IMG/VR virus record: IMGVR_UViG_3300020442_002772
Coordinates: 1-42,443 of that record
Source: a virus
Length of the DNA stretch: 42,443 nucleotides
Direction: 5' to 3' (one strand)
The translations under genes were made by a program, and so were the position numbers. Of the stretch, positions 4,132-18,806 are shown piece after piece. Each line of letters opens with the position of its first letter. The stretch's first letter is position 1. The notes beneath the pieces are model-generated. The model did not search any database. It was not told where the DNA came from and saw nothing but the letters and a program-made list of their open reading frames with translations.

Positions 4132-4300
4132 TGTCTTCTACCATTTGAATGTTAGCATATGTTTCAGAATATGCAGCATCCCACAGTTCATTAAGAATTG
4201 CATCATATTCTTTATAGGTTGACCCATCAACGATACTGTTCACCTGTTGTTTGCGAACAGCATCATAAACGAGTTTCCATTGATGATGATTAAGTTTCAT
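4118..4300 (-). CDS. Hypothetical helical protein, 60 aa
   Basis: ATG 4300 is preceded by GAGGAA at good spacing. The 60-residue product begins M-K-L-N-H-H-Q-W and is predicted to be helical and acidic towards its end, a type of short protein common in cyanophage early regions. It is the second gene of the operon driven by promoter B, 10 bases after the 124-residue gene. Function unknown. Confidence 0.65.
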   Translation of the reverse strand: MKLNHHQWKLVYDAVRKQQVNSIVDGSTYKEYDAILNELWDAAYSETYANIQMVEDIANS

Positions 4301-4310
4301 TGTTAATTCC

Positions 4311-4685
4311 TCACTTCATGTAGAGATAACCACCTGCCCAATCTGCATTGGCAAGCAACCATTCACGGTCACTGATGATGCAAAGGTTGAAACGTACATG
4401 TTTCGCAGGTGCTTTGAATGATGCTGCTTTGTAAACATCACCAGTCTTTTTGTCAACAAAGGCATGAACACTACGGGAACCAGCACCAGTCTCCATGATG
4501 ATTTTGTGATACTTACGTCCACTCTCAATGTAGAACTTGTAGTCATCAGACTTACGATTGTTCTTACCCTTGAAGTTATCAAGCAACGCATCACACAGCA
4601 TCAAAGTGTACTTACGCACATTCAATTCAATGGTGTTCCGTGCATCTTGAGTTGCAACGTAGTCAGAAAATGTCTGAGTGGTCAT
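4311..4685 (-). CDS. Conserved cyanophage hypothetical protein, 124 aa
   Basis: The start is ATG 4685 (M-T-T-Q-T-F), because AAAGGAAC lies just upstream and the longer open frame to 4736 reads back through promoter B. The C-terminal half carries a run I recognise from many cyanophage proteins: G-R-K-Y-H-K-I, then S-R-S-V-H-A-F-V-D-K-K-T-G-D-V-Y-K-A, then A-K-H-V-R-F-N-L. No enzymatic function has been assigned to that family to my knowledge. It is the first gene of its operon. Confidence 0.75.
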   Translation of the reverse strand: MTTQTFSDYVATQDARNTIELNVRKYTLMLCDALLDNFKGKNNRKSDDYKFYIESGRKYHKIIMETGAGSRSVHAFVDKKTGDVYKAASFKAPAKHVRFNLCIISDREWLLANADWAGGYLYMK

Positions 4686-4708
4686 GCCGTTGTTCCTTTG
4701 ACTCTTAT

Positions 4709-4736
4709 AGAATACACGAAAACGGGACGGGATCAA
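4709..4736 (-). promoter_or_regulatory. sigma70-like promoter (module B)
   Basis: TTGATC (4736-4731) and TATTCT (4714-4709) with a 16-base spacer, then ATAAGAGTCAAAGGAAC and ATG 4685. It is nearly identical to module A at 506-533, including leader and RBS. It should drive the 124-, 60-, 73- and 183-residue genes. Confidence 0.6.
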
Positions 4737-4738
4737 CA

Positions 4739-4767
4739 GATAGTGGACACCTTGCCAACTGTCTATC
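4739..4767 (-). promoter_or_regulatory. Imperfect inverted repeat overlapping a stop codon (module B)
   Basis: GATAGTGGACA (4739-4749) can pair with TGTCTATC (4760-4767) if three bases bulge. The right arm covers the TAG stop of the oxygenase gene at 4763-4765. The left arm is identical to that of module A. No U-tract follows. Confidence 0.45.
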
Positions 4768-5356
4768 CTCTCTTTGAATCACATTGAACAAACTTTGTGA
4801 TGGCATATCTATCATTTTCAACAACATCTGTGACAGCATGTTGTATCCATCCAGGAAAAATGACTGTTTTGTTATTTTTTGTTTCAATCTCATAGTCATG
4901 CTTGGGGAAATACAGATTTCCTCCAGTATCCTCAGCATGACAGAATGTGGTGGTGATCAACACATGAACCCAATAATCTGCATGTGGTTCATATCCATCA
5001 CCAGGATAATATCTCCTGACTTTAGTCCAGTCTGCATTAGATTCTATCCATGTTACCCAATAGTCATTATGCTTAAGCAATTCTTCATACAATTCTTTAT
5101 TTGTAAAGAAAACATCTTGAGTGATTTTTAAAATGTCAGAAACATCACGATTACCATAAAGTGTATCTAATGATCTACCTTTTGCTGTTGTCAAATATGT
5201 GTCATCATCACGTTGTGCGGCAGCATATTCTTCTGGATCACCCAATTTGTCGAGAAGAAAATCAAGTTCTCTCCAAAGTAGTTTTAATTCGTACTCATTA
5301 AACGTATTTTCTATGATAACATGTGGAAATGGTTCATTGAAAATCTGATAGTCCAT
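4763..5356 (-). CDS. 2-oxoglutarate/Fe(II) oxygenase
   Basis: A 197-residue single-domain protein with the double-stranded beta-helix iron site H125-x-D127 (in E-P-H-A-D-Y-W), a distal His at 173 (W-I-Q-H-A-V) and R183 (N-D-R-Y-A-I) suited to bind 2-oxoglutarate. The family couples 2OG decarboxylation to hydroxylation of a protein, nucleic acid or small molecule; prolyl hydroxylases are close in motif. The substrate is unknown. It overlaps the 72-residue gene by 23 bases and is the last gene of the unit from 9299, before the module B hairpin. Confidence 0.85.
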   Translation of the reverse strand: MDYQIFNEPFPHVIIENTFNEYELKLLWRELDFLLDKLGDPEEYAAAQRDDDTYLTTAKGRSLDTLYGNRDVSDILKITQDVFFTNKELYEELLKHNDYWVTWIESNADWTKVRRYYPGDGYEPHADYWVHVLITTTFCHAEDTGGNLYFPKHDYEIETKNNKTVIFPGWIQHAVTDVVENDRYAITKFVQCDSKRG

Positions 5357-5552
5357 CTTCTTGCTCCTTAATCAATTCTTGCATGGTGTCCATAAACTCA
5401 TCTGCTGTTGTGAGATTATCCACAGCATGAATCATTTCACCCAATGCTTTAACAACAAAAGGTTTTTCGTTTCTTGCAGCAAATGCCAATGCCTCACGCA
5501 AATGTGCCTGAGCAGAGTCTAATTCGTCTTTAACTTGATCAGATAGTGCCAT
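5334..5552 (-). CDS. Hypothetical helical protein, 72 aa
   Basis: A 72-residue protein, almost wholly amphipathic helix (M-A-L-S-D-Q-V-K-D-E-L), placed between two oxygenase genes. Its ATG at 5552 shares a base with the upstream stop and its end overlaps the next gene by 23 bases, so it is bound into the oxygenase operon. I recognise no family; it might be a small partner or chaperone, but nothing in the sequence shows that. Confidence 0.65.
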   Translation of the reverse strand: MALSDQVKDELDSAQAHLREALAFAARNEKPFVVKALGEMIHAVDNLTTADEFMDTMQELIKEQEDGLSDFQ

Positions 5553-6205
5553 TAGTCTTTCCTTTTTGTGTAGATTTTCTTTTCATTATCCCAGTCAAAA
5601 TGATCAACCATTTCTACGTCATCATTACCGAGATACAAACCCCATCCAGTTGCAATATATTTACTGCATGAATAAACGGCATTTCCACGATGAGTATGAG
5701 TGTAAAATGCTGGCCAAATTAACATCGTGCCTGCTTTTGGTTGTACTCTGAGACCTTGCCAAAGAAACTCAGTTTCACCTTCACCTTCAGGAATGTCATT
5801 CAAATATAACATCCAAGCAACACATCTGTCAACAACACCTAGATCATTTACTTCACAATGCCAGTCATGAAATCCACCTCTAGGTGAAGTCTTTTGCAAT
5901 TTTACTTCATCAAAATAGACATCAACATAGTCAGCAACCCAATACTTTTCACGATATTGTTTCCAACAATGATCAATAACTTTTCTGATAAGATTTGCAC
6001 AACGATTGTTTGAATTCATGTACCATTGTTCATCATGTCGAGTGAGATGTCCTCTCTCAGTTTCATGTGAACCATATCCTGACTTTATTTTACATTCTGG
6101 ATCGTCAGGATGTTTGTAATTGTCTTCAAAATACTGAATGATACGGTCACATGTGTGTTTATCTAGAGCATCAGGATAAACACCAATAAAATCACTGTCC
6201 TTCAT
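5552..6205 (-). CDS. 2OG/Fe(II) oxygenase, HxE variant
   Basis: A 217-residue protein of the cyanophage prolyl-4-hydroxylase-like type. The proximal iron motif reads W-H116-C-E118, so Glu takes the place of the usual Asp. A T-H-T-H-R-G-N segment (169-175) offers the distal His, and K182 in S-K-Y-I-A-T-G-W stands where the 2OG-binding basic residue is expected. The W-x-L-Y-L-N-D and E-T-E-F-L segments are typical of the fold. It overlaps the two-domain oxygenase gene by 4 bases (ATGA) and ends on the start of the 72-residue gene. The substrate is unknown. Confidence 0.8.
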   Translation of the reverse strand: MKDSDFIGVYPDALDKHTCDRIIQYFEDNYKHPDDPECKIKSGYGSHETERGHLTRHDEQWYMNSNNRCANLIRKVIDHCWKQYREKYWVADYVDVYFDEVKLQKTSPRGGFHDWHCEVNDLGVVDRCVAWMLYLNDIPEGEGETEFLWQGLRVQPKAGTMLIWPAFYTHTHRGNAVYSCSKYIATGWGLYLGNDDVEMVDHFDWDNEKKIYTKRKD

Positions 6206-7563
6206 ACAACCCAGGTGATAATAGAATATCTAGTTCCATCAGTTACAGGCATGATTTCATGTGGATACATGAAATTAGATGGGAAAACTAATATATCACC
6301 AGCACCGAGTTTATATACCAATTCACGGTTGAATAGTGCGACTTCACCACCCTCATAACCATCATTCATTGACATAATGACAGTCAATGCTCTAGGTTGC
6401 TCCTTAAATGAATCACTATGCTGAATATAAAAGTCACCAACTTCATACTTCAACAGTTCATATCCACTGTCTTCTTGAATCTCCAATTCAAATTCTGGAT
6501 GCTGTTGTTGATACTGCTCAATAATATCTTTAACAACATCGAAGAGATGATTGTCAATCTCTCTCCTCTCTTGTTCATTCTCCTCTTCAATAACACCTTG
6601 ATCAGAGATAGGAATAAACTCACACTTTCTTGCTTGGGGATCATGCCCACTACCAGTTAGTGTCTGCTCCCAGTAATTAGTTGGTGCATATTCTTCTAGA
6701 AGTCTATCACAAAAATCTGGGTCAATAAACTCTTCACTATGCCAGATAAAATGTTCTAAACCTAAAGAACTTAGTTTCTTTACTTTTGTTTGAATTTCTG
6801 GTGTGTCCTTCTTCTTCAGGAACTTTTCGTACTTACTATTTGCTACAACGACATTATCAAAGTCTACAAAATCCTCATCTTCGTTGTCTTGACGAACAAT
6901 ATCTATCGATGGTTCTTCCTGTTCTCTATATTTTTTGGGAAGAATTGCTCTTGGATTTACATGTTCAAATCTACTTCTCATTGCTTCATACTCCTGCTTT
7001 AATGCGACATGATCTTCAATTGCTTCTGTGGGTATTTTATCAAAATATGTGCAACCATATAGTCCTCTACTTCTTACATAATGTAAAAAGACTTGTGCAT
7101 ATTGATCACCATCAAATTTAGTTCTCCAATGTGGAGCAACACAACCCAAGTATAACATAGCATCACCAGGATTTAAAGTGACGCATTTCTTTTCTTTTTC
7201 TGGTGTTTCAATCCAAATTGCCCATGGTTTATCACCACCAAGATGTACTGTCATTGATATTTCGCAAGCAGGACGATCTGTGTGCTTCTTAAGAACACTG
7301 TCTCGGTGATATATTCTAGAGTAAGTATATGTTGGTAGAACAGTTTCACCAATAAGTTCACTGACCTCACTAGTTTTGTTACAGAGTAACTCTACAGCAG
7401 GATGAAACATAAAACATGAGGCAGAATATGGTGCCTGCTCATCACCATCAAACTCGAATTGTGCATCTGTTATGATAAACTCTTGTTCTAATCTTTTAGC
7501 ATAATCTAGATCAATAAAACCAGGAACAACCATATAGTTGTTCTTCAATAATTCAAGTTTCAT
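6202..7563 (-). CDS. Two-domain 2OG/Fe(II) oxygenase
   Basis: A 453-residue fusion of two oxygenase domains. Domain 1 (about 1-175) has H94-T-D96 and H145 (P-H-W-R), but at the usual 2OG-anchoring Arg the sequence reads D-Q-Y-A-Q-V-F-L-H-Y-V, with no basic residue. Domain 2 (about 268-453) has a full set: H382-S-D384, H435 and R445 in D-G-T-R-Y-S-I-I-T-W. A charged linker (180-265) joins them. Domain 2 resembles prolyl-4-hydroxylase; domain 1 may use another anchor or be structural. It follows the coiled-coil gene by 6 bases and overlaps the next oxygenase gene by ATGA. Confidence 0.8.
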   Translation of the reverse strand: MKLELLKNNYMVVPGFIDLDYAKRLEQEFIITDAQFEFDGDEQAPYSASCFMFHPAVELLCNKTSEVSELIGETVLPTYTYSRIYHRDSVLKKHTDRPACEISMTVHLGGDKPWAIWIETPEKEKKCVTLNPGDAMLYLGCVAPHWRTKFDGDQYAQVFLHYVRSRGLYGCTYFDKIPTEAIEDHVALKQEYEAMRSRFEHVNPRAILPKKYREQEEPSIDIVRQDNEDEDFVDFDNVVVANSKYEKFLKKKDTPEIQTKVKKLSSLGLEHFIWHSEEFIDPDFCDRLLEEYAPTNYWEQTLTGSGHDPQARKCEFIPISDQGVIEEENEQERREIDNHLFDVVKDIIEQYQQQHPEFELEIQEDSGYELLKYEVGDFYIQHSDSFKEQPRALTVIMSMNDGYEGGEVALFNRELVYKLGAGDILVFPSNFMYPHEIMPVTDGTRYSIITWVV

Positions 7564-7569
7564 ATGTCA

Positions 7570-8916
7570 TCACTTATCGTTTTTGTCTAGAACCTCTTTC
7601 AGAGCAGCAAACCATTTAACTGCCTTATCTAGAGGCATTTCAGTTCCATCTCCTCTCTCTTCATCTGTGAGAGTAGTGTATAGTTTCTCTGGATCAATTT
7701 CATCCATCATTGACAAAATATCATTGACTGAATACTCTTGACCACCTTCAAGTTCTTTTCTTTCCAGACTTTCACTTGCAAGTTTAGTTAGTTCAGTAGG
7801 ATCAGTGTTTTCTGCCTTCTGTGCTTCAATGAGTTTTGCTCTTTGTGCCTCTCTATATTCTAGTTCTGCTCTTTCAAATTCTCTCTCTAGTGCATCATCA
7901 AGTTCATCATTTGTCTGCTCAATATCCATCTTCTTGAGAACTTCTTCATGAGATCTCATGATGATGTCCATCTCTTGATCAACTTGCTGCTTAAACTTCA
8001 ACTGCTCTTGTTCGTGATCGAGTTTCATTTTTTCTCTTTCACGATTGACTTCTTCTAATGCAAATTGTGCGTCACTCCATGCAACTTCAAGTCCTTGCTT
8101 TTGCATTTCAAGTTCAATCTTAGAAATTTCAAATTCCTCTTCCTCAAGAGCACGAACTTTTTCTTCCTGTGCTCTCTTAAGTTCCCTTTCTTGCTCGTCT
8201 TCAAGAACATTCTTCTCAAAAAGTTCTGCTTCTCTTTCCATCTTGTCACGTTCCATCTGAAGCAGTTCTTGATATTGCTTTCTCTCTTCAATAAATGCTT
8301 CCTTCTCTTTCTCAAAGTCATGGAAGAGTTCATCATACTTCTTAGCAAGTTCTAGAGACTTTTTCTCAAAGAATTCGTCTGCTTTCTGTGCCTCAAGTCC
8401 TGCTTTTTCTGATTCTCTTGCTGCCTTTTCTCTCTCAAGTTGAATCAATGCAGTTTGCTGATCATAAATTCTTGCTTGCTCTGCTTTAGATTGTGCATCA
8501 TAAAGTTCTTCTCTCTCTTCACGAAGTTCTTTATTTTGTTTCTGAAGATCCTCAATGATGACAAGTTGTGCTTCTTTCTCTAGTTTATCTAGATTCAATT
8601 CTTCAATTTGAGCAGCAAGATTTTCCTCTTCTGCTAGTGCAGCAGCAAGTTCTTTTTGCTCATAGAGTGTAAGGAAAGAATTGAAATAATCTAGGTATGG
8701 TTGAATAATAGTGTCAAATTCATCATCACCAAAAATCTTATTTGGTGCTGGTTCTTCACCAGGAATGTCCTCATATTCTAATTCACCTCTACCATCTCTC
8801 CACTGAATTGCATGGATAGTTTCATCATCAAAACCCCAAGGTGCATCATCCTCAAGATCAACAGTCTTACCATCTACGATAATTTTTTTATCTGCTGGGA
8901 TAATAGAAATTCTCAT
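7570..8916 (-). CDS. Long coiled-coil protein with conserved cyanophage N-domain
   Basis: A 448-residue protein. Residues 1-75 begin M-R-I-S-I-I-P-A-D-K-K and continue with a W-G-F-D-D and I-H-A-I-Q-W pattern that I associate with small cyanophage proteins encoded near tail-fibre genes. Residues about 80-375 are nearly all Glu, Lys, Gln, Arg, Leu and Ala in heptad-like spacing, a very long coiled coil. The last 70 residues are mixed. It overlaps the Cys-rich gene by ATGA and lies between collar fibres and oxygenases under a late promoter, so a structural, scaffold or fibre-assembly role is possible but not shown. Confidence 0.7.
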   Translation of the reverse strand: MRISIIPADKKIIVDGKTVDLEDDAPWGFDDETIHAIQWRDGRGELEYEDIPGEEPAPNKIFGDDEFDTIIQPYLDYFNSFLTLYEQKELAAALAEEENLAAQIEELNLDKLEKEAQLVIIEDLQKQNKELREEREELYDAQSKAEQARIYDQQTALIQLEREKAARESEKAGLEAQKADEFFEKKSLELAKKYDELFHDFEKEKEAFIEERKQYQELLQMERDKMEREAELFEKNVLEDEQERELKRAQEEKVRALEEEEFEISKIELEMQKQGLEVAWSDAQFALEEVNREREKMKLDHEQEQLKFKQQVDQEMDIIMRSHEEVLKKMDIEQTNDELDDALEREFERAELEYREAQRAKLIEAQKAENTDPTELTKLASESLERKELEGGQEYSVNDILSMMDEIDPEKLYTTLTDEERGDGTEMPLDKAVKWFAALKEVLDKNDK

Positions 8917-9299
8917 TGTTGCTCCTCGTCGGATTCGGGTAGTAAGTTTTCTTCTGTATTATCTATGCCTTCGATTTGTTCAATGTATTCGGAAACATTA
9001 ACACCTTGTGCTTCACACATATCAAGATACATGTTACCAACAGCATCTAACATATTCTGATTACTTTCATTTGCCTTCACCATTTCATTACGGAATGATT
9101 CAACAGCAGAACTGGTAGATCTTTGTTGTTGACTATTTTCGATCATCAACATTGGCATCCATTGTACTGCACAAGACCAATGATCTACTGGATTTCCAGT
9201 ATTAGGATCTTGTCCCATAATATGTGTATACCAAGCACACTTATGTTCAATACAATCTTTTTTAATAAGAGGACACCACTTGCCAGTTGCCTTAGTCAT
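8913..9299 (-). CDS. Cys-rich conserved phage protein, 128 aa
   Basis: Residues 9-43 contain four Cys (C9-x6-C16-x4-C21-x21-C43) together with conserved-looking W-C-P-L-I-K, I-E-H-K-C and D-H-W-S-C motifs. This N-terminal pattern occurs in small phage proteins that often precede a coiled-coil gene; it could bind zinc or an Fe-S cluster. The rest is helical (E-S-F-R-N-E-M-V-K-A-N-E) with an acidic tail. It is the first gene after the late promoter at 9319-9327 and overlaps the coiled-coil gene by 4 bases, so the two are probably partners. Confidence 0.7.
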   Translation of the reverse strand: MTKATGKWCPLIKKDCIEHKCAWYTHIMGQDPNTGNPVDHWSCAVQWMPMLMIENSQQQRSTSSAVESFRNEMVKANESNQNMLDAVGNMYLDMCEAQGVNVSEYIEQIEGIDNTEENLLPESDEEQQ

Positions 9300-9318
9300 A
9301 AAACGAAATTCAGTGTAT

Positions 9319-9327
9319 TATTTATTA
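9319..9327 (-). promoter_or_regulatory. T4-like late promoter TAATAAATA
   Basis: The minus strand reads CTATAATAAATAATACACTG, close to the T4 late -10 consensus TATAAATA, 20 bases before ATG 9299 and just after the stop of the Arg-rich collar fibre. It should give late expression of the Cys-rich, coiled-coil and oxygenase genes. Confidence 0.6.
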
Positions 9328-9332
9328 TAGCA

Positions 9333-10628
9333 TCAAATGCCGAATTTGGTTGCTGCATCATCAAGAGAACATAAGATTACATCAATATATTGTACTTGTA
9401 GTGGTGCTAATCCTGCTGACCATGATATTGGAGATCCAGCAAATGGATGAGTATGTCCTTGACCACCACCAGTTGGTGATGTTGCTGGTGCTTGAGTATT
9501 ACTATTTCTAATAGTACCACCAGGACTCAAAGTTCTTGTAGAGATTCTTACACTTGTAGTTGTTGGATACCTTTGTGGTGTACGATATGCTCTTGGTTGT
9601 CTGTAAGATGCAGGATTTCTTTGAGGAACTGATACTCTGAACGGAATATTCACTCGGAAAGAATTTCTCTGTCTGAATGAATATCTCACTCTGAATGTTC
9701 TTGGTTGCCTCTGTCTAAACTGTCTTCTTTGTCTACCAGATCTAGGTTGTCTAAAGTTACGAGGTTGACGGAAACTTCTTCTCTGTCTACCAGATCTAGG
9801 TTGTCTAACCTGTCTTCTTTGTCTGTAACCAGAGTTCCTAGGTTGTCTTCTATTTGCTCTTCTTGGGAATCTATCATTCCTTCTTCTTCGTCCACCTCTT
9901 CTTCTTGGTTCCCTATCATTATTTCTAACACCAGCACGGAAACTGAATGGAATTGGTCTCCTACTTCTTCCAGTATCAACACGGAAGTTAAATGGTGCTC
10001 TAGATCTTAATGGAACACGGAAAGGAACAGGAACTCTGAAGTTAAATGGATTTCTAGAACGAGTATCATATCTAACTCTAAAGTTCCTTGGTTGTCTAGA
10101 TCTAAGTGGAACTCTTTGTCTTCTTGGTTGTCTATAGTTACGGGGTTGTCTTACATTAGTTGGTTGTCTAAAGTTTACAGTAACCCTACTGTTTAGTGTG
10201 GTTCTTGTTGTTGATCTGACATTATATCCACGTGGTTGTCTATTGTCTGTTCTAAATGGTGATGATGATGCAGCAGATCTATAAGAATTAGGATTACTTC
10301 CAGTGTTATGAGTATGTGCAGGAATCTCTGCTGTTGTTAAAGTATGACTACCTACAGAACCTGAAATAGTTGCAGCTACAGGACCAGCAGCACCAGTAGA
10401 ATTAAAAGTACCAGAAACTGGAAGTGTTCCACTAGCAGAACCACCAGTATTAACATTATTATCTACAACTCTAAGAAATTTATCACTCTGACTGTTATCC
10501 TGTGTCCATCCAGTTGGTGCTGCCGACTGATAAAACACCATTACAGTGTTTTCAGGGACAATATCATAATAACTATCTAACTCAGTTCCATTACCAAATT
10601 CTAATCCATCTAATTGGAGAATTGCCAT
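9333..10628 (-). CDS. Tail collar-type fibre with Arg-rich RQPR insert
   Basis: A 431-residue protein. Residues 1-113 match its neighbour's N-terminus (phage tail-collar style: V-F-Y-Q-S-A-A-P-T-G-W, then H105-T-H107). Residues 362-431 match its C-terminus (A-P-A-T-S-P-T-G-G-G, H382-T-H384-P-F, V-Q-Y-I-D-V-I-L-C-S). HxH pairs of this kind bind metal at the tips of T4-type fibres. Between them lies an insert of about 250 residues (114-361) with some 75 Arg and no Lys or Cys, made of R-Q-P-R, R-N-F-R and P-F-R-V units. A GAGGTG site overlapping the upstream stop precedes ATG 10628. Probably a virion receptor-binding or decoration fibre. Confidence 0.75.
   Translation of the reverse strand: MAILQLDGLEFGNGTELDSYYDIVPENTVMVFYQSAAPTGWTQDNSQSDKFLRVVDNNVNTGGSASGTLPVSGTFNSTGAAGPVAATISGSVGSHTLTTAEIPAHTHNTGSNPNSYRSAASSSPFRTDNRQPRGYNVRSTTRTTLNSRVTVNFRQPTNVRQPRNYRQPRRQRVPLRSRQPRNFRVRYDTRSRNPFNFRVPVPFRVPLRSRAPFNFRVDTGRSRRPIPFSFRAGVRNNDREPRRRGGRRRRNDRFPRRANRRQPRNSGYRQRRQVRQPRSGRQRRSFRQPRNFRQPRSGRQRRQFRQRQPRTFRVRYSFRQRNSFRVNIPFRVSVPQRNPASYRQPRAYRTPQRYPTTTSVRISTRTLSPGGTIRNSNTQAPATSPTGGGQGHTHPFAGSPISWSAGLAPLQVQYIDVILCSLDDAATKFGI
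9462..9500 (-). repeat. 39-bp exact direct repeat, copy 1
   Basis: These 39 bases are identical to 10741-10779. They code for the segment just before the C-terminal HTH motif in each of the two collar fibres, while flanking DNA is more diverged. The pair is either recent duplication or a short recombination site. Confidence 0.75.
9546..10289 (-). repeat. Arg-Gln-Pro repeat region inside fibre gene
   Basis: This segment encodes the Arg-rich insert. The DNA is built from short in-frame units, many of the form AGACAACC (Arg-Gln-Pro), interleaved with units coding Phe-Arg-Val or Asn-Phe-Arg. They are degenerate repeats of 9 to 30 bases rather than one clean unit, the kind of region that can change length by slippage or unequal recombination. 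Confidence 0.7.
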
Positions 10629-10638
10629 GAATTACACC

Positions 10639-11181
10639 TCAACTAAAACTACAGAGGATAACATCAATGTATTGAACTCTAAGGTCAATAGTTCCAGAAT
10701 AAGGTGATGCTCCACCTGAAAATGGGTGAGTATGTGCTCCACCACCACCAGTTGGTGATGTTGCTGGTGCTTGAGTATTTACAGCACGTCCACCAATACC
10801 AGGAGAACCAGGACTTACATTAACAGAAGAACCTGCATTATGTGTATGACCAGGAATTTGCTGAACCGTAAGTGTGGTTGGTTGAACAGAACCAACAGCA
10901 TTTACAGTTCCACTAATTGGTCTAGCACTTGTTGGAAAAATTGTAGAGAATGGTTGTCCACCAGGACCATCAGTACCACCAGAACCAAAAGATCCAGAAG
11001 TTCCTGACGCAGCATTTACAACTCTAAGTGCTTTATTTGTGTGCGTATTAACTTGAGACCACCCATTTGGTGCAGATGCCTGATAAAATACTGCTACACT
11101 ACCTTGAGGAATAATTCCATATTTAGAATTGAGAATGGTATTATCACCGAATTGTATACCACTCGTCTGGAGAATAGACAT
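10639..11181 (-). CDS. Tail collar-type fibre protein, 180 aa
   Basis: A paralogue of the next gene without the Arg-rich insert. It starts M-S-I-L-Q-T-S-G-I-Q-F-G-D and has V-F-Y-Q-A-S-A-P-N-G-W near residue 31, H112-T-H114-N and H150-T-H152-P-F, and ends V-Q-Y-I-D-V-I-L-C-S. The HxH pairs suggest metal-stabilised trimers as in T4 gp12 and gp37 tips. Only about 35 residues separate the two HTH motifs here, against about 275 in the paralogue. It is the first gene after the late promoter at 11216-11223. Probably a virion fibre or collar component. Confidence 0.75.
   Translation of the reverse strand: MSILQTSGIQFGDNTILNSKYGIIPQGSVAVFYQASAPNGWSQVNTHTNKALRVVNAASGTSGSFGSGGTDGPGGQPFSTIFPTSARPISGTVNAVGSVQPTTLTVQQIPGHTHNAGSSVNVSPGSPGIGGRAVNTQAPATSPTGGGGAHTHPFSGGASPYSGTIDLRVQYIDVILCSFS
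10741..10779 (-). repeat. 39-bp exact direct repeat, copy 2
   Basis: Second copy of the repeat at 9462-9500, in the same orientation, 1279 bases away. It codes for the same T-Q-A-P-A-T-S-P-T-G-G-G region in the smaller collar fibre. Confidence 0.75.
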
Positions 11182-11215
11182 ATTATACCAATTACTAACA
11201 ACAGATAACGTGTAT

Positions 11216-11223
11216 TATTTATC
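11216..11223 (-). promoter_or_regulatory. T4-like late promoter GATAAATA
   Basis: Minus strand GGATAAATAATA overlaps the TAA stop of the 220-residue oxygenase gene, 34 bases before ATG 11181. It matches seven of eight positions of TATAAATA. Confidence 0.55.
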
Positions 11224-11881
11224 CAATATTAAATGCGATGGATATTCTTTCTTGATCACTAAAATGTGGTGTAACATAGTGACCAACCGTAGATGGCATT
11301 AAGTATAATCTACCAACCTCAGGTTTAATTGTAAATTCACACCAATTAGGAATATCAGCAAATGCACCATTATGATTTGATGGATCAGATCGAAGAATAG
11401 TTAAGTTTCCTTCATGTTCTTCAAGATCAGTGGGAATCATTGGATAGTAAATTCCAATGACTGTGCAACCAGGATGTGTGTGAAATACATTATATCCCAT
11501 GCCTTTGTTGATGTTTATCCACCAACCAATCTGATCGTCAGCAACTCTAGTTCCAGATCCACAATCTTCTAGCATATCATTTGTAAGATCAATCACATTT
11601 CTGGCAAGATTTTGAATAGCAGGTGTAACTCCTCTTCTAATTTGTGCTAATTCATACACTTGACTCTGCCAACCATCACCAAAGTTAGACTTTCTAACTC
11701 CATTGGGATATCGATCTTTTAGATCAAAACACTCATCAACAATTTCCTGATTGTCAAAATTTAATTTATAATCAAAGAATGGGGTGGTGAATAGTTCAAT
11801 TCTATCCCTCGTTGCTACATCTATGGGAACAAAATTGTCATCATTTGGATTTATATCAGGTCTAAACTTATGTTCTCCCAT
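11219..11881 (-). CDS. 2OG/Fe(II) oxygenase, HxH type (TIGR02466-like)
   Basis: A 220-residue protein with H134-T-H136-P-G, the His-x-His-x-Gly variant iron motif of the 2OG-FeII_5/TIGR02466 family. It also has G-H201-Y-V-T-P-H206 and R212 in E-R-I-S-I-A-F-N, the distal His and 2OG-anchoring Arg. The length is right for the family. The substrate is unknown. Its ATG overlaps the previous stop (TAATG). It is the last of four successive oxygenase genes, and its stop codon lies within the late promoter of the collar fibres. Confidence 0.8.
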   Translation of the reverse strand: MGEHKFRPDINPNDDNFVPIDVATRDRIELFTTPFFDYKLNFDNQEIVDECFDLKDRYPNGVRKSNFGDGWQSQVYELAQIRRGVTPAIQNLARNVIDLTNDMLEDCGSGTRVADDQIGWWININKGMGYNVFHTHPGCTVIGIYYPMIPTDLEEHEGNLTILRSDPSNHNGAFADIPNWCEFTIKPEVGRLYLMPSTVGHYVTPHFSDQERISIAFNIG

Positions 11882-12612
11882 TATTTTGGTGCCCTCGGAT
11901 TTTTGAAGAAAAATACTTGATTGATTCTAAACTCAGCATCACTATAATGATCTGCAAAATAATGTTTACCAGTTAGATCCATACTGTGATAGTAATATGA
12001 TCCTTCAAACATCACAAATCGATTGAACTTTGAACGAAATCTAACTACAATTTCCCATAGATTTTTAGGTGTCCATGGAATAGCATGTTCATCCCTTACA
12101 CCATCATTTTCATCCAAAGGTAATACTTCAGGATCATCAGTAATCAATGGTTTATATAAGTTTGTTCCTATCTCATCCTTCTTTGAGAGATAACAAATAC
12201 CATTATATCCTCCATCATGATGAGGCCACCAAAAATGACTATCGTATGGGTTTTCTTTAACTCTCGAAAATCTTGTGAAGTTAGTTACAATTTCATCATC
12301 CAAAGGATCTTGATTACAAATCCCAGAAACCTTATCATACAATGAGCATATGCCAGGATGCTTCATCATATGTCTACGATCTTCAAAGTATTTTGTGTTA
12401 AGTGTTCCTCTACCAAGTTCCCATTCTGGTCCTACTTTCCATAGTGGTGGTTCAATAGAAAGCAAGTAATTATACACATCATCAGGTCGTTTGTAAAAGT
12501 TATCCATCCAATAGATGTTGGATACTTTATCACCATCAACAAACTCAATGATGTTCATATTTGAGAAATCATTAGTCTCAAATAGTGTTGGATCTTTGCC
12601 TAAATCTCTCAT
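11881..12612 (-). CDS. 2OG/Fe(II) oxygenase-like protein (DUF6445-like)
   Basis: A 243-residue protein. W-W-P-H131-H-D133-G-G gives the HxD iron motif, H209 (Y-Y-H-S-M) the distal His, and R229 (F-R-I-N-Q-V-F-F-F) the 2OG anchor. The W-x-x-H-H-D-G-G pattern followed by G-T-N-L-Y recalls the DUF6445 family. It overlaps both neighbours, ATGA upstream and TAATG downstream, so the cluster is read as one message. The substrate is unknown; it could act on a protein, sugar or nucleotide. Confidence 0.7.
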   Translation of the reverse strand: MRDLGKDPTLFETNDFSNMNIIEFVDGDKVSNIYWMDNFYKRPDDVYNYLLSIEPPLWKVGPEWELGRGTLNTKYFEDRRHMMKHPGICSLYDKVSGICNQDPLDDEIVTNFTRFSRVKENPYDSHFWWPHHDGGYNGICYLSKKDEIGTNLYKPLITDDPEVLPLDENDGVRDEHAIPWTPKNLWEIVVRFRSKFNRFVMFEGSYYYHSMDLTGKHYFADHYSDAEFRINQVFFFKNPRAPK

Positions 12613-13172
12613 AAAAATATCTCTCCTATTTTCTTATCATCTAAACAAAAACCAAACACCCATAATATTCTAGGTTTATTACCCTCAGTTACTGTAACTT
12701 CATGATGAATCTCAGAAACCTGATAGATCAGAAGATCTGTAGCATCTAAGTCATTATATTCTACACCACCAATGATAGTATGTCCACCCCTATCTGCCTT
12801 CTGTGTGATGGCATTGAAGTGAACTGTTTTTGTATTTGGATAGTATGTAGGATCAATGTGTTCTTCTATTCTTCCACCAGAATATCCAATACCATTTACA
12901 ATCCCATGACTATATGATGGTGGACCTTTATATCCATCTAAGTCAAAGTAATTTATAATTCTTTGTCTGACAATGTGTGCAGCATGAGGATATTGTATAT
13001 CTGGAGCAACATCTTCGTTTGGAAACCGAGTTGTAAATCTTGTTCCAGGATTATCGGGATCCATGTTAGCATCTTCAAAGAACTCTTGATGACAATTATC
13101 AAGTGTCCACTGATTTAATTCTCTTACATTATCTTGAAACAAAAAGTTTCTAAGAACAAATGATTTAGACAT
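12609..13172 (-). CDS. 2OG/Fe(II) oxygenase, 187 aa
   Basis: From ATG 13172 the protein has 187 residues. H105-I-D107 (E-E-H-I-D-P-T-Y), H156 or H157 (E-I-H-H-E-V) and R168 (K-P-R-I-L-W-V-F-G-F) make a complete iron and 2OG site of prolyl-hydroxylase type. The open frame extends to 13241, but that would overlap the upstream gene by 77 bases; ATG 13172 overlaps it by only 8 and gives the family-like start. It overlaps the next gene by ATGA. The substrate is unknown. Confidence 0.8.
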   Translation of the reverse strand: MSKSFVLRNFLFQDNVRELNQWTLDNCHQEFFEDANMDPDNPGTRFTTRFPNEDVAPDIQYPHAAHIVRQRIINYFDLDGYKGPPSYSHGIVNGIGYSGGRIEEHIDPTYYPNTKTVHFNAITQKADRGGHTIIGGVEYNDLDATDLLIYQVSEIHHEVTVTEGNKPRILWVFGFCLDDKKIGEIFL

Positions 13173-13836
13173 CACTTGTAAAGTATTCACCAGGTCCTTG
13201 AGCATTTTCTTCTTCAAAAGAGAAACACTCATACTCTGCATTGATGTTAAATGATAGAATAATTCTATCTACATCACTCTGATTTGGTGCAGTATAGTGA
13301 AGAACATATGATGGGAAGAATATAATTGATCCTTCTCTAATTCCTGGTGGAATGATATTACATGTTTCAACATCTGCTAGGTTTGGATTTAGAAAGATGG
13401 TTGGTGTATGATGTTTGGGGTCAAATTGAATGAAACAAACCGCACTAAATCCTTGAGATCCATGATTGTGAACCTGATGAAACTTACTGGTTGATGCTTT
13501 CTCAAACCATGAAGTACAAACTTCAACACTACATTCAAATGTATCAGCAAGTGCCTCTAATTCTTCTTTGAAGATGTCCATGATGTCTTCATCATAGGTC
13601 TCTCCACTGTCATGATTATGATGATAGTCTGTCTCTACATCTAGACTGGTTTCACTTCCTGTTGCTACCTTAAATCTAGACTTATCTGCTTTTCTCTTCT
13701 CATACATCCTGAGAAGTTCTTCTTTCTTTCCTTCCCAATCCTCCACCTTAAGATGTAAAAGAGGAGTAGAGAACATTGGAATCAGATACTCTTCATTTCC
13801 CAGTGGTGCATCACCATAAATTGCAAAATTTGTCAT
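13165..13836 (-). CDS. 2OG/Fe(II) oxygenase, HxH type (TIGR02466-like)
   Basis: A 223-residue protein with H123-N-H125-G, distal H180 (Y-V-L-H-Y-T-A-P) and R191 (D-R-I-I-L-S-F-N), the same family as the 220-residue protein but well diverged. The N-terminus (I-P-M-F-S-T-P-L) is typical of the family. It is first in the run of four oxygenase genes, 1 base after the small basic protein gene. The C-terminal 25 residues are an acidic tail beyond the catalytic core. Confidence 0.8.
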   Translation of the reverse strand: MTNFAIYGDAPLGNEEYLIPMFSTPLLHLKVEDWEGKKEELLRMYEKRKADKSRFKVATGSETSLDVETDYHHNHDSGETYDEDIMDIFKEELEALADTFECSVEVCTSWFEKASTSKFHQVHNHGSQGFSAVCFIQFDPKHHTPTIFLNPNLADVETCNIIPPGIREGSIIFFPSYVLHYTAPNQSDVDRIILSFNINAEYECFSFEEENAQGPGEYFTSDV

Positions 13837-13837
13837 G

Positions 13838-14065
13838 CTATTTCTTTTTTGTCTTTTTAAGGTGTCTTTTTTGTAATTTTAACACTGCTGTGAGTGCTGT
13901 GTCAAATTTACGATATAGTTTCCCTGTTGGTTGTCCTTCAATGATGGTGGTATATTTTTCTTTCTTACCTGCCATCGGAATCACAACAAAGTTTCCATCA
14001 TCTGAGCAGTATTGATTGCGAAAATCAGGTTCTAACAGTGATGAGTTATTATATGTATACTTCAT
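13838..14065 (-). CDS. Small basic hypothetical protein, 75 aa
   Basis: A 75-residue protein starting at ATG 14065, 3 bases after the helicase stop. The N-terminal half is neutral. The C-terminus is very Lys/Arg-rich (L-K-L-Q-K-R-H-L-K-K-T-K-K-K), which could contact nucleic acid. Its place directly behind the helicase suggests co-expression. I recognise no family. Confidence 0.6.
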   Translation of the reverse strand: MKYTYNNSSLLEPDFRNQYCSDDGNFVVIPMAGKKEKYTTIIEGQPTGKLYRKFDTALTAVLKLQKRHLKKTKKK

Positions 14066-14068
14066 AGA

Positions 14069-15316
14069 TCACCTCTTGATTGTAGAAACAGCAGCACCAC
14101 CTTGCTCAAACACAATGTCAACAACAGTTTGGATCTTCTGAGCAGTTTGAATACCAACTTTGTTGTAGGTAGGAACACAAACCAGACCAAAAGACTTGGT
14201 ATACTGGTCAAGTTTACCAGGAATGATGCTGCCATTGCGAAGACCTTCAGCATCATCTTTGTGTAGACGGATCACACGTCCGATGGTCTGACTGATACCA
14301 ATGTAATCCATGGATCGCATGAAGATCACAGCATTGAGACCAGAAACGTTGATACCTTCAGACAGGATGCTGTGGTGCAGAACAACAAACTTCTTCTCAT
14401 TGTCTTTGCCCCATGCACTCAAAGTCTCAAAGAAAATCTCACGATTGACCTTGCGACCATCAATCACAGCACCAGTCTTGGCAGTGATATACATGTAAGA
14501 ATATCCGCGGATCTCCAGTTGGAAAGTAAAGTCAGACTGACCAATCAGGTTGACAATGTTCTTCGTAGACTTGGAGCAGATCAGTGCTTTGTCAGCACCA
14601 GTCTCGTCAATAGTCTTGATCAGGTGAGCAGAATCCCGTGCAGGAACATCAGCAAACAGATCAGCATTGTCCAGTTCGTTGACAACAACCTTAGGAGGAA
14701 TGATGAAACCATTGTTGATAAGTTCAGGTGCAGGAACCTGACAGATTACATCACCATAGACCTCACGATCATTCATGCCAGGTTTCATCACCGTAGCAGA
14801 GTGTTTCGGAGTCGCAGTAAAGAAATAGCAACGATCAGCAGCATTGCTGAAGTGCTCAGTAGCAGGAAAGAAGTTGCGGGTGACAGAGTTGTGAGATTCG
14901 TCAAAGTAAATGGTATTGACTTCAATATCTGCCTGCTGAACTTTGTGCAGAGAATGATAAGTGGTGAAGATAATGCAAGAATCACCAGCAGTCCGAGCAA
15001 CATTAGCAAACAGATGAATTTTGTCTGCTTTGGTGCTGCTGAAGTGCTGAGTTTCACCACTGTGAACGTGCATCACATGGACATTCTTAGTATCAATCAG
15101 TTCCAGAAACTCACTGCAAAGTTGCTCAGCGAGAAGAATACGAGGAGCAACAACAACAGTAGTAGTGCCACTGCTGATTGCATTATGAGTTGTAATAGTA
15201 TCTTGAATCATGGTGATAGTCTTACCACCACCAGTCGGAACAATGATTTGACCCTTGTCAGATGCCAGCATAGCATCGCAAGCACGTTGCTGATGAGGAC
15301 GAAGAGAGATGGTCAA
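14069..15316 (-). CDS. SF2 DEAD/DEAH-type helicase
   Basis: A 415-residue protein with superfamily 2 helicase motifs in order: P-T-G-G-G-K-T (Walker A, 27-33), a D-E-S-H box (139-142), T-A-T (167-169), S-E-G-I-N-V (319-324) and Q-T-I-G-R-V-I-R (343-350). It would use ATP to remodel DNA or RNA; UvsW-like or restriction-helicase-like roles in recombination or repair are plausible. The start is TTG 15316, with GGAAA upstream and no ATG until residue 16. It has its own sigma70-like promoter (15340-15368). It heads the unit that continues into the oxygenase genes. Confidence 0.85.
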   Translation of the reverse strand: MTISLRPHQQRACDAMLASDKGQIIVPTGGGKTITMIQDTITTHNAISSGTTTVVVAPRILLAEQLCSEFLELIDTKNVHVMHVHSGETQHFSSTKADKIHLFANVARTAGDSCIIFTTYHSLHKVQQADIEVNTIYFDESHNSVTRNFFPATEHFSNAADRCYFFTATPKHSATVMKPGMNDREVYGDVICQVPAPELINNGFIIPPKVVVNELDNADLFADVPARDSAHLIKTIDETGADKALICSKSTKNIVNLIGQSDFTFQLEIRGYSYMYITAKTGAVIDGRKVNREIFFETLSAWGKDNEKKFVVLHHSILSEGINVSGLNAVIFMRSMDYIGISQTIGRVIRLHKDDAEGLRNGSIIPGKLDQYTKSFGLVCVPTYNKVGIQTAQKIQTVVDIVFEQGGAAVSTIKR

Positions 15317-15339
15317 GTGGTTTCCGTATCGATGAATAT

Positions 15340-15368
15340 AATATAAAACACCCTGACCCGAAAGTCAA
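15340..15368 (-). promoter_or_regulatory. sigma70-like promoter before helicase (module C)
   Basis: TTGACT (15368-15363) and TATATT (15345-15340) with a 17-base spacer, close to consensus. The predicted start lies a few bases before the TTG start codon at 15316. Confidence 0.65.
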
Positions 15369-15377
15369 GGTGCCTGT

Positions 15378-15396
15378 GACAGTTCTCAAACTGGTC
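15378..15396 (-). promoter_or_regulatory. Hairpin after 54-aa gene (module C)
   Basis: GACCAGTT and AACTGTC arms (one bulged base) around a 4-base loop, 3 bases beyond the stop of the 54-residue gene and upstream of the helicase promoter. No U-tract follows. Confidence 0.5.
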
Positions 15397-15399
15397 CTA

Positions 15400-15564
15400 T
15401 CAGATCATTTTGATCGTCTCTTGTTGTTTGAAATATAATTTTACATATGACTTGAGCATCGTTCGTAGACCCTCAATGTCTTCAATCTTATCAATATCCC
15501 TTGAAATTTTCTCATATTCAAAGGATTTTGATGGTGTTTGTAATGAAATCTCAGATGGGTCCAT
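15400..15564 (-). CDS. Conserved small cyanophage protein, 54 aa
   Basis: A 54-residue frame from ATG 15564 with AAAGGAGC eight bases upstream, an excellent ribosome binding site. The product (M-D-P-S-E-I-S-L-Q-T, then F-E-Y-E-K-I-S-R-D-I-D, then Y-V-K-L-Y-F-K-Q-Q-E-T) is helical and matches a short protein type I recall from cyanophages and marine cyanobacteria (F-E-Y-E-K-hydrophobic-S-R and I-K-L-Y-x-K-Q-Q-E). Its function is unknown. It stands behind a fully consensus sigma70 promoter, so it may be strongly expressed early in infection. Confidence 0.75.
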   Translation of the reverse strand: MDPSEISLQTPSKSFEYEKISRDIDKIEDIEGLRTMLKSYVKLYFKQQETIKMI

Positions 15565-15592
15565 GAAAATGCTCCTTTAATAGTGTCTTAGC

Positions 15593-15621
15593 ATTATATA
15601 GATAAGTCTCAGAGTTGTCAA
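15593..15621 (-). promoter_or_regulatory. Consensus sigma70 promoter (module F)
   Basis: TTGACA (15621-15616), a 17-base spacer and TATAAT (15598-15593): exact bacterial consensus on the minus strand. It marks the change from late virion genes to the early-type unit that begins with the 54-residue gene. Confidence 0.85.
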
Positions 15622-15634
15622 GAGCCTTCCTTTT

Positions 15635-15672
15635 GATCCCTGACAGAGATATTCTACTGACAATCAAGGATC
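15635..15672 (-). promoter_or_regulatory. Inverted repeat after the 1021-aa fibre gene (module F)
   Basis: GATCCTTGA and TCAGGGATC pair over 9 positions with one G-T wobble and a 20-base loop. The structure starts 3 bases beyond the fibre stop codon. It is followed by AAAAGG rather than a U-tract. Confidence 0.5.
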
Positions 15673-15675
15673 TTG

Positions 15676-18600
15676 TCAATAGAGTCCAGCATCGATCTCA
15701 ACATTTACAACATTTAGGACTTCTTTAATCTCCACACCAGTGTCAACAGTATTTGCTTCAAAGATTGTAGTGAGTCCAAGTGTATTGTTTATGTTAATGT
15801 AGAGATTCTGTAACTCCATCTCAGATGGAAGTCCCTGAGGTAGGACATAACGATCTCTTCCAACTTCACCAGTACCAGGATTAGGATTTACATCAGTGCG
15901 GATTGCAACTCTTCCTTCAGATTGATCATAGAAAATACCAGCATACCTATGAGTTGAGAGACCAACATCATAACGTGCCATCAAAATACCAGCATCGCCA
16001 GTATTTCCTGCTGCTACATTAGGTGGAATAAGTGTACCTTCATTGAGTGGATCTTCAATGAGACCAAGTGTTAGAAGATTGTCTCTGATGTTGACATCTT
16101 GAACGTTTAGTCTTGCTTCAGAACCATTGAAGAATACACTATTGGCAGTTAGATCACTTGTAATTCCAACATTACCAGTACCACCTTCCATCTTAATGGC
16201 AATAGTTCCATCACCAGCACGCATTGTGCCTGTGCCTACCTGTAAATCACCTGCAACAGTCGTTTTGACATCACTATCCATTGTGATGTTTGCTTGACCG
16301 TTACTTGCACGGATCTCATCACTACCTACTTGAATTGCACCAGCAAATATGGTATTATTATTTGCAACCAAAGTGATATTCGTATCACCAGTGCCTGCCT
16401 GAACTTCATTACCTTCAACTCTAATTGGACCAGTGAAACTTGTTAATTCTTGATTATCAAGCATTAAGATATTAACTGCACCATCGGAAGATAGAATCTC
16501 GTTTCCACGAATTTCAATGTCACCATAGAAAATAGTTTTAGTATCACCAACCAGTTCGATGTTAGTGACACCAAATCCAGTCTGTATGTCATTACCACCA
16601 ACAATTAGATCACCTGTAGTTTCTACATATGTTCCAGCAGTACCAACTGTAATAGCAGTTGTTCCATCATCTGATTGAATGACATTCTTACCAAGTCTTA
16701 AGAAACCAGTAAGTTCAGTGATATTATTTCTGAGGGTAGCAATACCAAGATCATTACCACCAATTACAACATCAGTTGCACTCTTGAATAGATCTGCTCT
16801 TAATGATGTATCTGCAATGTTAATATCGTTCTGATCACACTTAATATAAGTACCACCAATCTGTACCCAACCAGCAATTGCTACATATGTGTCATCAACA
16901 AGTGAAATTGCAGTTTGTCCTGCAGCAGCCTGAATATCATTTTGGGAAAGTCTGAGTCTTGTCAGTTCAGTGACATTACTTCTAATTGATGTAAATCCAC
17001 CATCAGAACTTTGTGCTTCACCAATGTCAATATATCTTGCTTCACTTGCAAGATTAAGTTCTTTAACACCATAGTTCAGTAAGTCAAATCTTAAATCAAC
17101 TCCAGATTCGTCTGCGTTAATTGCAGTACCAAGAACATTCAGATTATTATGTACGAATAGACTTGTACTAAACGCATCTAAGTAGAAACCTGGGTTGACA
17201 AATAATCGACCACCAGCATCAGTTTGATTTTGACCAGAGTTGCCCATTGCTGGGTAGAAGAACTCTGGATTTGTGCTGTTAGTTTCGTCTTGCTTATATA
17301 AATCTACGTTATTTGCTTGGAAAGCAGTAGAAACGAACGCATTGTTGTAACTACTACTGATGATGTTTAAGAATCCATTGATTGTTGCAACACCAACATG
17401 ATTGAAGAAACCTGTACTATCAACATTAGCAAATACTGCTTTACCAGGACCAACATTTAGATAAACTTCATTCTCATCAGTTCCACCAGCACCAGCAACA
17501 GATAAGTAAGCAATAGTTGCACCTAGACCAACATCTAGGTTTACCATATTTACCTGACTGTCTGTTCCAGCAGGACCAATATCTAAGAAGTGGAAGAAAC
17601 CATTTTCCCAACGTCCACTTTCAGATCCAATAAACGCATGTGGTCTACCATCAGCAATCTTTGGTAATAGATCAGTAAGTGTTGATGTACCAAAGTTAAT
17701 ACTTGTTCTATTTCCATTGGCAGCAGCACTTCCATCTACAAATCTTTTATCACCAGAATCAATTCCTACATAAACTTCTGGAACTCTAAATGCAGTATTA
17801 TTAAAGAAAGTGTTCTCTGATGCACCTATTGGGTTACTATAATCAATACTAGAACCAACTGAAATGGAACCATCAATTTTAGTAGATTTACCGACACCTA
17901 AGTTACAATCAACTTGAAGACCACCACTAGTATAAATTGCTGGTAGTCCAAAATTGTCAGTGTATCCAATACCAGGATCATTCTCAAATTCTGGACTTAA
18001 AACTCTTAATGTTGGACGAACACTGGCACCTTCTGCTGGAACAACATCAACACCTTCCATGAAGGTTGCTGTGTCATAGAATATTGAACCTGGAACAACA
18101 ACAAATTCTGTTCCAAGTCCTGGTTGACCAGATATTACAGGATCAGTACCATTGAAATGTACTCTACCAGCAACATATAATGCACTTTCTTTAGGATCAT
18201 CTGATCCAACATTATCAATAACAACTAGAGCATGTGCTACGCTATCACTATCAGCATATGCACCACCACCAGGACCAACAGGACTGAGACCAAAGTCTGC
18301 GTTACCACTTGATGGATCACCACCTTGAGCATTTGCAACAGGAACTGACGGTTGTCCGATATAAACCGTTCCCATTCCAGTATCACGGGAAAGAGTAGTA
18401 ACTCCAGTAACTACAAGATCCCTAGTTGTTGTTAGTCCACCTACGTTTAACTTAGGAAATGTAGCACCGAAACCAGTGATGGCAGCAGTAGATCCATCAT
18501 CAACGTTTAATCTTCCTTCAATATAAACATCATCCAGCAAATATGATTCGTTAAAGTTGATCAGTGAATCATCGGCACTAGAACCTCTTGACGTTCGTTC

Positions 18601-18741
18601 TGTTAGATAATCACCGACCGTACTACCGATGCCCACACCACCTAGCATGACTAGGGATGTTGTTAGTCCTATATTTTGATTCGCATCTCTGACTTCAACG
18701 AAGGACGCAAATTGAGATAGCTCTCTACTATTTCTAGTCAT
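15676..18741 (-). CDS. Large repeat fibre / virion structural protein, 1021 aa
   Basis: Residues about 600-850 hold tandem units of roughly 30 residues (for example G-N-E-V-Q-A-G-T-G-D-T-N-I-T-L-V and G-S-D-E-I-R-A-S-N-G), a beta-rich pattern of elongated fibres. The rest is rich in Gly, Thr, Val and Asn with G-V-G-K-S, G-I-G and T-T-R-D-L type turns usual in cyanophage tail fibres. The C-terminal 200 residues (N-V-Q-D-V-N-I-R-D-N, then G-I-L-M-A-R-Y) look like a separate domain. It is the last gene of the fibre block, 62 bases after the hydrolase gene, with a late promoter overlapping that gene's stop. Exact position in the virion is unknown. Confidence 0.75.
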   Translation of the reverse strand: MTRNSRELSQFASFVEVRDANQNIGLTTSLVMLGGVGIGSTVGDYLTERTSRGSSADDSLINFNESYLLDDVYIEGRLNVDDGSTAAITGFGATFPKLNVGGLTTTRDLVVTGVTTLSRDTGMGTVYIGQPSVPVANAQGGDPSSGNADFGLSPVGPGGGAYADSDSVAHALVVIDNVGSDDPKESALYVAGRVHFNGTDPVISGQPGLGTEFVVVPGSIFYDTATFMEGVDVVPAEGASVRPTLRVLSPEFENDPGIGYTDNFGLPAIYTSGGLQVDCNLGVGKSTKIDGSISVGSSIDYSNPIGASENTFFNNTAFRVPEVYVGIDSGDKRFVDGSAAANGNRTSINFGTSTLTDLLPKIADGRPHAFIGSESGRWENGFFHFLDIGPAGTDSQVNMVNLDVGLGATIAYLSVAGAGGTDENEVYLNVGPGKAVFANVDSTGFFNHVGVATINGFLNIISSSYNNAFVSTAFQANNVDLYKQDETNSTNPEFFYPAMGNSGQNQTDAGGRLFVNPGFYLDAFSTSLFVHNNLNVLGTAINADESGVDLRFDLLNYGVKELNLASEARYIDIGEAQSSDGGFTSIRSNVTELTRLRLSQNDIQAAAGQTAISLVDDTYVAIAGWVQIGGTYIKCDQNDINIADTSLRADLFKSATDVVIGGNDLGIATLRNNITELTGFLRLGKNVIQSDDGTTAITVGTAGTYVETTGDLIVGGNDIQTGFGVTNIELVGDTKTIFYGDIEIRGNEILSSDGAVNILMLDNQELTSFTGPIRVEGNEVQAGTGDTNITLVANNNTIFAGAIQVGSDEIRASNGQANITMDSDVKTTVAGDLQVGTGTMRAGDGTIAIKMEGGTGNVGITSDLTANSVFFNGSEARLNVQDVNIRDNLLTLGLIEDPLNEGTLIPPNVAAGNTGDAGILMARYDVGLSTHRYAGIFYDQSEGRVAIRTDVNPNPGTGEVGRDRYVLPQGLPSEMELQNLYININNTLGLTTIFEANTVDTGVEIKEVLNVVNVEIDAGLY

Positions 18742-18797: not shown

Positions 18798-18806
18798 TAT
18801 TTATTA
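18798..18806 (-). promoter_or_regulatory. T4-like late promoter TAATAAATA
   Basis: GGTAATAAATAGG on the minus strand overlaps the TAA stop of the hydrolase gene and lies 57 bases before ATG 18741. A weaker CTAAATACT lies closer to the start (about 18776-18784). Confidence 0.55.

Follow-up and report, generated by a model that had tools for sequence, protein, structure and literature searches.

The DNA described here, referred to as the window, is a 42.4-kb IMG/VR virus fragment (IMGVR_UViG_3300020442_002772, positions 1 to 42,443) in which seven genes for 2-oxoglutarate (2OG)/Fe(II) oxygenases flank a pair of tail-fibre genes between positions 4763 and 13836. Part of this block, a fibre tip protein followed by a small protein with four invariant cysteines (the 4-Cys protein), a chaperone-like protein and a two-domain oxygenase, is a cassette that recurs in other phages. 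The gene set itself is not unknown. The nearest named relative of the window, Synechococcus phage S-SCSM1 (Kyanoviridae; MK867354), an isolate whose host is Synechococcus WH7803, has 83% DNA identity to window positions 4300–16000 over 11.7 kb, and its open reading frames (ORFs) ORF240–251 are the counterpart of the block, with identical gene content and order. The linkage of fibres and oxygenases is the new part.

2OG oxygenases are among the commonest cyanophage genes, and their function has been a question since at least 2010. Ecological studies usually class them as auxiliary metabolic genes. The S-SCSM1 paper already labels the seven ORFs of the block 2OG-Fe(II) oxygenases; it reports 24 oxygenases in that phage and assigns them to reprogramming of host metabolism (PMC9602691). 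An earlier sequence-only reading of the window held that cyanophages carry such genes singly or in small numbers; as that count shows, many in one cyanophage are nothing new. In the portion of the paper available to us, the oxygenases figure as host-metabolism genes, with no fibre link, repeat or cassette described (PMC9602691). The block stands out for its density: 7 of 12 consecutive S-SCSM1 genes are oxygenases, against 24 of 281 genome-wide (label permutation, P = 0.0013). The features of the window block are given below, with the oxygenases labelled W1 to W7.

4763–5356, minus strand: W1, 2OG/Fe(II) oxygenase; PF13640; H125xD127, H173, R183
5552–6205, minus strand: W2, 2OG/Fe(II) oxygenase; PF13640; H116xE118, H172, K182
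6202–7563, minus strand: W3 (OX2), two-domain oxygenase; N half H94xD96/H145 (PHROG label 'ferrochelatase'), C half PF13640, H382xD384/H435/R445
7570–8916, minus strand: tail-assembly-chaperone-like protein with a long coiled-coil extension; N-terminal profile matches a PF16778-bearing protein of phage CRP-361
8913–9299, minus strand: small 4-Cys protein, partner gene of fibre and oxygenase; invariant C9, C16, C21, C43
9333–10628, minus strand: tail fibre with HTH-motif tip domain and hexapeptide repeat insert
9531–10244, minus strand: repeat insert within that fibre, residues 129–366; period 6, R-x-P-x-x-[F/Y]; 31% Arg, 11% Pro, net charge about +69
10639–11181, minus strand: repeat-free tail fibre tip protein, whose orthologue in S-SCSM1 bears a virion-protein annotation
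11219–11881, minus strand: W4, 2OG/Fe(II) oxygenase; PF13759; H134xH136, H201, R212
11881–12612, minus strand: W5, 2OG/Fe(II) oxygenase; phrog_1644; H131xD133, H209; predicted fold nearest OGFOD1
12609–13172, minus strand: W6, 2OG/Fe(II) oxygenase; H105xD107, H157, R168; predicted prolyl-hydroxylase fold
13165–13836, minus strand: W7, 2OG/Fe(II) oxygenase; PF13759; H123xH125, H180, R191

The genes are tightly packed around the fibres, as the sequence-only reading had described, but they do not all overlap: neighbours share 1–8 bases or are separated by 6–37 bases, apart from a single gap of 195 bases. The large fibre matches tail-fibre PHROGs, and in S-SCSM1 the pair is annotated as tail fibre and short tail fibre. 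For the earlier label of collar fibre there is no more than a sub-threshold Gp10_C match (15.7 vs 27 bits). Tryptic mass spectrometry identified 45 proteins in the S-SCSM1 virion (PMC9602691). The orthologue of fibre 10639–11181 carries a virion annotation and that of 9333–10628 does not; just 7 of 83 tryptic peptides of ORF245 have 7–35 residues, so the lack of a virion-protein mark for it carries little weight.

Oxygenase domains of the block

All seven genes read earlier as oxygenases are present, and their eight domains have intact, family-conserved metal triads, with ligands near-invariant across relatives in the alignments of every family. Profile hidden Markov model searches place W1 (36.6 bits), W2 (41.1) and the C half of W3 (54.1) above the Pfam cut-off for PF13640 and W4 (56.5) and W7 (44.2) above that for PF13759, while W5, W6 and the N half of W3 are above no Pfam cut-off. 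The metal site of W2 reads H116x[E/D]118/H172/K182 across relatives, and PF13759-type members have HxH instead of HxD in 262 of 263 aligned sequences. Of the sub-types proposed earlier, 'TIGR02466-like' and 'DUF6445-like' fall short of the cut-offs of their models: W4 and W7 score 51.9 and 28.7 bits with TIGR02466 (NCBIfam cut-off 62.5), and W5 scores 16.6 bits with DUF6445 (PF20043; gathering score 24).

AlphaFold models were built for W5 and W6, the two doubtful ORFs, from alignments of the window proteins with viral-contig relatives, and both are predicted to be double-stranded beta-helix 2OG oxygenases with a protein-hydroxylase-like fold. The W6 model (predicted local distance difference test score, pLDDT, 95.7) matches PHD2, bacterial P4H and the viral collagen prolyl hydroxylase vCPH at Z about 15–15.5; this fold similarity (Z about 15) suggests that W6 may be a prolyl hydroxylase. 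Further matches of the W6 model are SnoN, an epimerase, and WelO5, a halogenase. The W5 model (pLDDT 82.6) matches OGFOD1 (Z 12.8), the mimivirus L230 lysyl hydroxylase (11.4), human LH3, and the ABH2 and ALKBH3 folds. A halogenase of the WelO5 type was considered for W6 (Pfam WelO5, E 0.03) and rejected; in that type the metal-site carboxylate is replaced by Gly or Ala, leaving room for chloride, and D107 of W6 is invariant. The label 'minor coat protein' that W5 receives from PHROG 1644 and RefSeq is doubted as an inherited annotation, with no Pfam support and with a motif and predicted fold that are those of a 2OG oxygenase.

The weakest of the eight assignments is the N half of W3, a putative oxygenase domain with conserved H94xD96 and H145. 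The N half of an orthologue matches PF13532 at E 7e-4; the profile of this half found no match among PDB sequences, and its profile–profile comparison with W6 gave a probability of 2.6%. By sequence it belongs to both phrog_2954 and phrog_3531, which carry the phage label 'ferrochelatase', but no ferrochelatase Pfam domain was found in the window protein or its ACG-2014f and S-T4 orthologues, and the label was rejected as an inherited annotation; the architecture and conserved residues of W3 fit a two-domain oxygenase. Phage 'ferrochelatase' proteins of these two groups (W3, and 11968–13056 of locus L191) appear to be two-domain 2OG oxygenases. If so, part of the ferrochelatase counts in virus surveys would be oxygenases, which may bear on studies that treat phage ferrochelatases as metabolic genes (for example PMC11561400).

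The fibre–oxygenase cassette

With the 10639–11181 fibre as query, which involves no selection for oxygenases, 79 viral loci were returned, and nearly all have the order fibre, fibre, 4-Cys protein, chaperone-like protein and two-domain oxygenase. The 4-Cys family as query found the core order again, in more distant phages. Counted as unique loci with identical copies collapsed, a fibre is just upstream in 128 of 137 4-Cys loci, and an oxygenase is found no more than 3.5 kb downstream in 103 of the 113 with enough sequence (of the two-domain type in 89 of them). The baseline, other ORFs on the same contigs with an oxygenase nearby, is 119/410 (29%). Even where the two-domain proteins share no more than about 41% identity, the core order is kept.

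A similar arrangement occurs in Prochlorococcus phage P-SSM2, where PSSM2_028–031 encode in a row a collagen-repeat fibre (PF01391), a 4-Cys protein, a PF16778 tail assembly chaperone and a PF13640 oxygenase (PiuC). Unlike the window, P-SSM2 has collagen G-P-P fibre repeats instead of R-x-P, and one oxygenase gene rather than seven.

The 4-Cys family has no Pfam or NCBIfam match; in myoviruses and one podovirus its gene nearly always follows immediately on one for a tail fibre. Its members adjoin fibre genes in S-B05, RB11-B and Roseobacter podovirus CRP-361, where no oxygenase is nearby. The 8913–9299 protein is a candidate metal-binding fibre assembly factor. For the chaperone-like family, the N-terminal profile matches the PF16778-bearing CRP-361 protein at E 1.4e-10. 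The full 7570–8916 protein has no Pfam match and lacks the C-terminal motif of PF16778 (Phage_tail_APC), and the homology is limited to the N-terminal regions.

The repeat insert and the extra oxygenases

Fibre 9333–10628, like the adjacent one, is a tip protein, and its residues 129–366 form an insert that separates two His motifs. This insert repeats with a period of 6 (autocorrelation 0.33), the unit being R-x-P-x-x-[F/Y]. Among 18 similar fibres, identity is 91% at Arg, 83% at Pro and 79% at Gln positions. More distant repeats (loci L030, L032 and L297) keep the period and 13–14% Pro, with Arg down to 12–15%; across diverged repeats Pro is stable at 11–14% while Arg varies from 12 to 31%. 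A DNA pattern search for a different low-complexity repeat gave no match.

The insert is accompanied by changes in its neighbours. W5 and W6 lie upstream of the fibres in all 17 of the repeat loci whose upstream sequence reaches 4.5 kb or more and in 0 of 42 non-repeat loci, and the chaperone-like protein has 431–502 residues in repeat loci and 78–352 in others. A tree built from the two-domain oxygenase groups the repeat loci as one clade (support 99), with one change. The 17/17 versus 0/42 contrast (Fisher P 3.6e-15) was rejected as independent evidence, since the tree needs only that single change.

Outside the repeat lineage, W5 relatives mostly occur with one to three oxygenases per locus and no low-complexity neighbour. 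Runs of at least four oxygenases with enough flanking sequence (L337–L339 and L366, two unrelated lineages with 4–9 oxygenases) lie directly beside low-complexity, Gly-rich tail-associated proteins, which give phrog_2295 and weak 'tail fiber assembly' matches. These two lineages are the sole independent support for a tie between repeats and oxygenases, and the numbers are small. In one uncultured phage (L338, 4759–10193), eight or nine consecutive oxygenase genes sit between the Gly-rich tail protein and neck genes.

Proposed fibre maturation and competing explanations

Enzyme family, metal ligands, gene linkage and co-occurrence are the observed basis for what we regard as the likeliest mechanism, held with roughly even confidence: the block hydroxylates the fibre during assembly. 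The core (the fibre tips, the 4-Cys and chaperone-like proteins and W3) would modify newly made fibre, probably by side-chain hydroxylation, while the chaperone and the 4-Cys protein hold it. In the window lineage the second fibre would have acquired the ~240-residue R-x-P-x-x-[F/Y] repeat and the chaperone its coiled-coil extension, and three extra oxygenases (11219, 11881 and 12609) would have joined the block, with hydroxylation of the repeat as their most likely role. Proline would be the favoured target because its content is stable while Arg varies and because W6 has a predicted prolyl-hydroxylase fold; the modification may affect repeat folding, stability or host binding. Translational overlap among the block genes is counted as support.

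A close known parallel is collagen-type prolyl hydroxylation. In its predicted fold and its metal triad, W6 resembles P4H of animals and algae, PBCV-1 vCPH and bacterial P4H/PHD enzymes, and the proposed target is again a structural protein with Pro-containing repeats. Collagen-type P4H binds 2OG through a Lys, and W2 has Lys at the distal +10 position. The phage system would differ in its repeat, R-x-P-x-x-[F/Y] instead of G-x-P, and in having several different oxygenases at work side by side. The literature searched, which leaves out most subscription journals, yielded no prior proposal that phage oxygenases hydroxylate fibres. More tentatively, phages may encode multi-enzyme protein-hydroxylation systems for maturing their receptor-binding fibres by a collagen-like logic, with the R-x-P-x-x-[F/Y] repeat, itself not described before, as substrate and with many of the unexplained cyanophage oxygenases being virion-modifying, not metabolic. 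If the fibre link is true, many oxygenases would shift from host metabolism to virion structure, and phages would gain oxygen-dependent tuning of host attachment.

The modification pathway suggested by the sequence-only reading gains from a fibre–oxygenase linkage conserved far beyond the window phage and from an extra trio that tracks the repeat insert; it loses from relatives that are unlinked. Movement of oxygenases independently of fibres is seen in part, and several observations weigh against fibre maturation. The two-domain oxygenase and 4-Cys protein of S-SCSM2R are next to glycosyltransferases, at a distance of ~39 kb from the fibre homologue. Distant W5 homologues (30–38% identity) adjoin primase, nrdB or baseplate genes, and W6 homologues at ~40% identity (L305–L311) have no fibre nearby. 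No oxygenase was detected downstream in ten of the 4-Cys loci, although in some (L076, L078 and L163) one occurs elsewhere in the locus. Overall, the 24 S-SCSM1 oxygenases show no enrichment around virion genes (7 vs 5.6 expected, P = 0.32). The two-domain oxygenase is not repeat-specific, because it is found also beside fibres without repeats. Because the repeat loci all fall into one clade, the association of repeat and trio is, on the tree, one evolutionary event: a joint gain kept intact over large divergence, not 17 events. The predicted W5 and W6 fold matches fall in a superfamily with many substrate types, and to our knowledge no modified fibre residue is known.

That single clade also suits the best placed of the alternatives, a structural-gene hot spot in which an insertion-tolerant region gathers oxygenases beside fibres and the linkage is inherited with no functional tie; single oxygenases of the same families found elsewhere fit it too. 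We consider it unlikely, given that the core order survives to about 41% identity though the neighbours differ, and that the 4-Cys protein adjoins a fibre even in a Roseobacter podovirus. Ranked just below it, and likewise improbable, is the published reading (PMC3037559, PMC9602691), in which the enzymes are auxiliary metabolic genes that act on host metabolites or lower 2-oxoglutarate, reprogramming nitrogen and energy metabolism, with fibre adjacency incidental. It predicts neither the linkage with fibre, 4-Cys and chaperone-like genes nor the co-occurrence of the trio with the repeat, though most other S-SCSM1 oxygenase genes do sit among replication and metabolic genes.

More doubtful still is sugar or small-molecule chemistry, in which the enzymes act not on amino acids but on sugars or other small molecules that are carried by the fibre or sent out to the host surface. 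The S-SCSM2R two-domain oxygenase begins a glycosyltransferase cluster, some of the ~40%-identity W6 relatives are near sugar epimerases, and the W6 model also matches SnoN and WelO5; yet the block genes scanned gave no glycosyltransferase match, and W5 is matched best by protein hydroxylases and enzymes of the AlkB type. Genes resembling nucleotide-sugar epimerases lie further downstream of the W6 relatives in L306 and L310. AlkB-like demethylation in nucleic-acid repair or modification is very improbable: W5 matches the ABH2 and ALKBH3 folds and the orthologue of the two-domain protein weakly matches PF13532, but the linkage is to fibre and chaperone-like genes and the top W6 matches are prolyl hydroxylases.

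Upstream of the block, the proteins at window 15676–18741, 18804–19907 and 19907–21559 match no PHROG and give no convincing hit in Pfam, and their S-SCSM1 counterparts by gene order, ORF236, ORF235 and ORF234, are annotated virion proteins. A further Pro-rich structural protein in this phage group is S-SCSM1 ORF19 (L184, 23462–31273), a 2,603-residue virion protein with a long (R/Q/N)-P dipeptide run.

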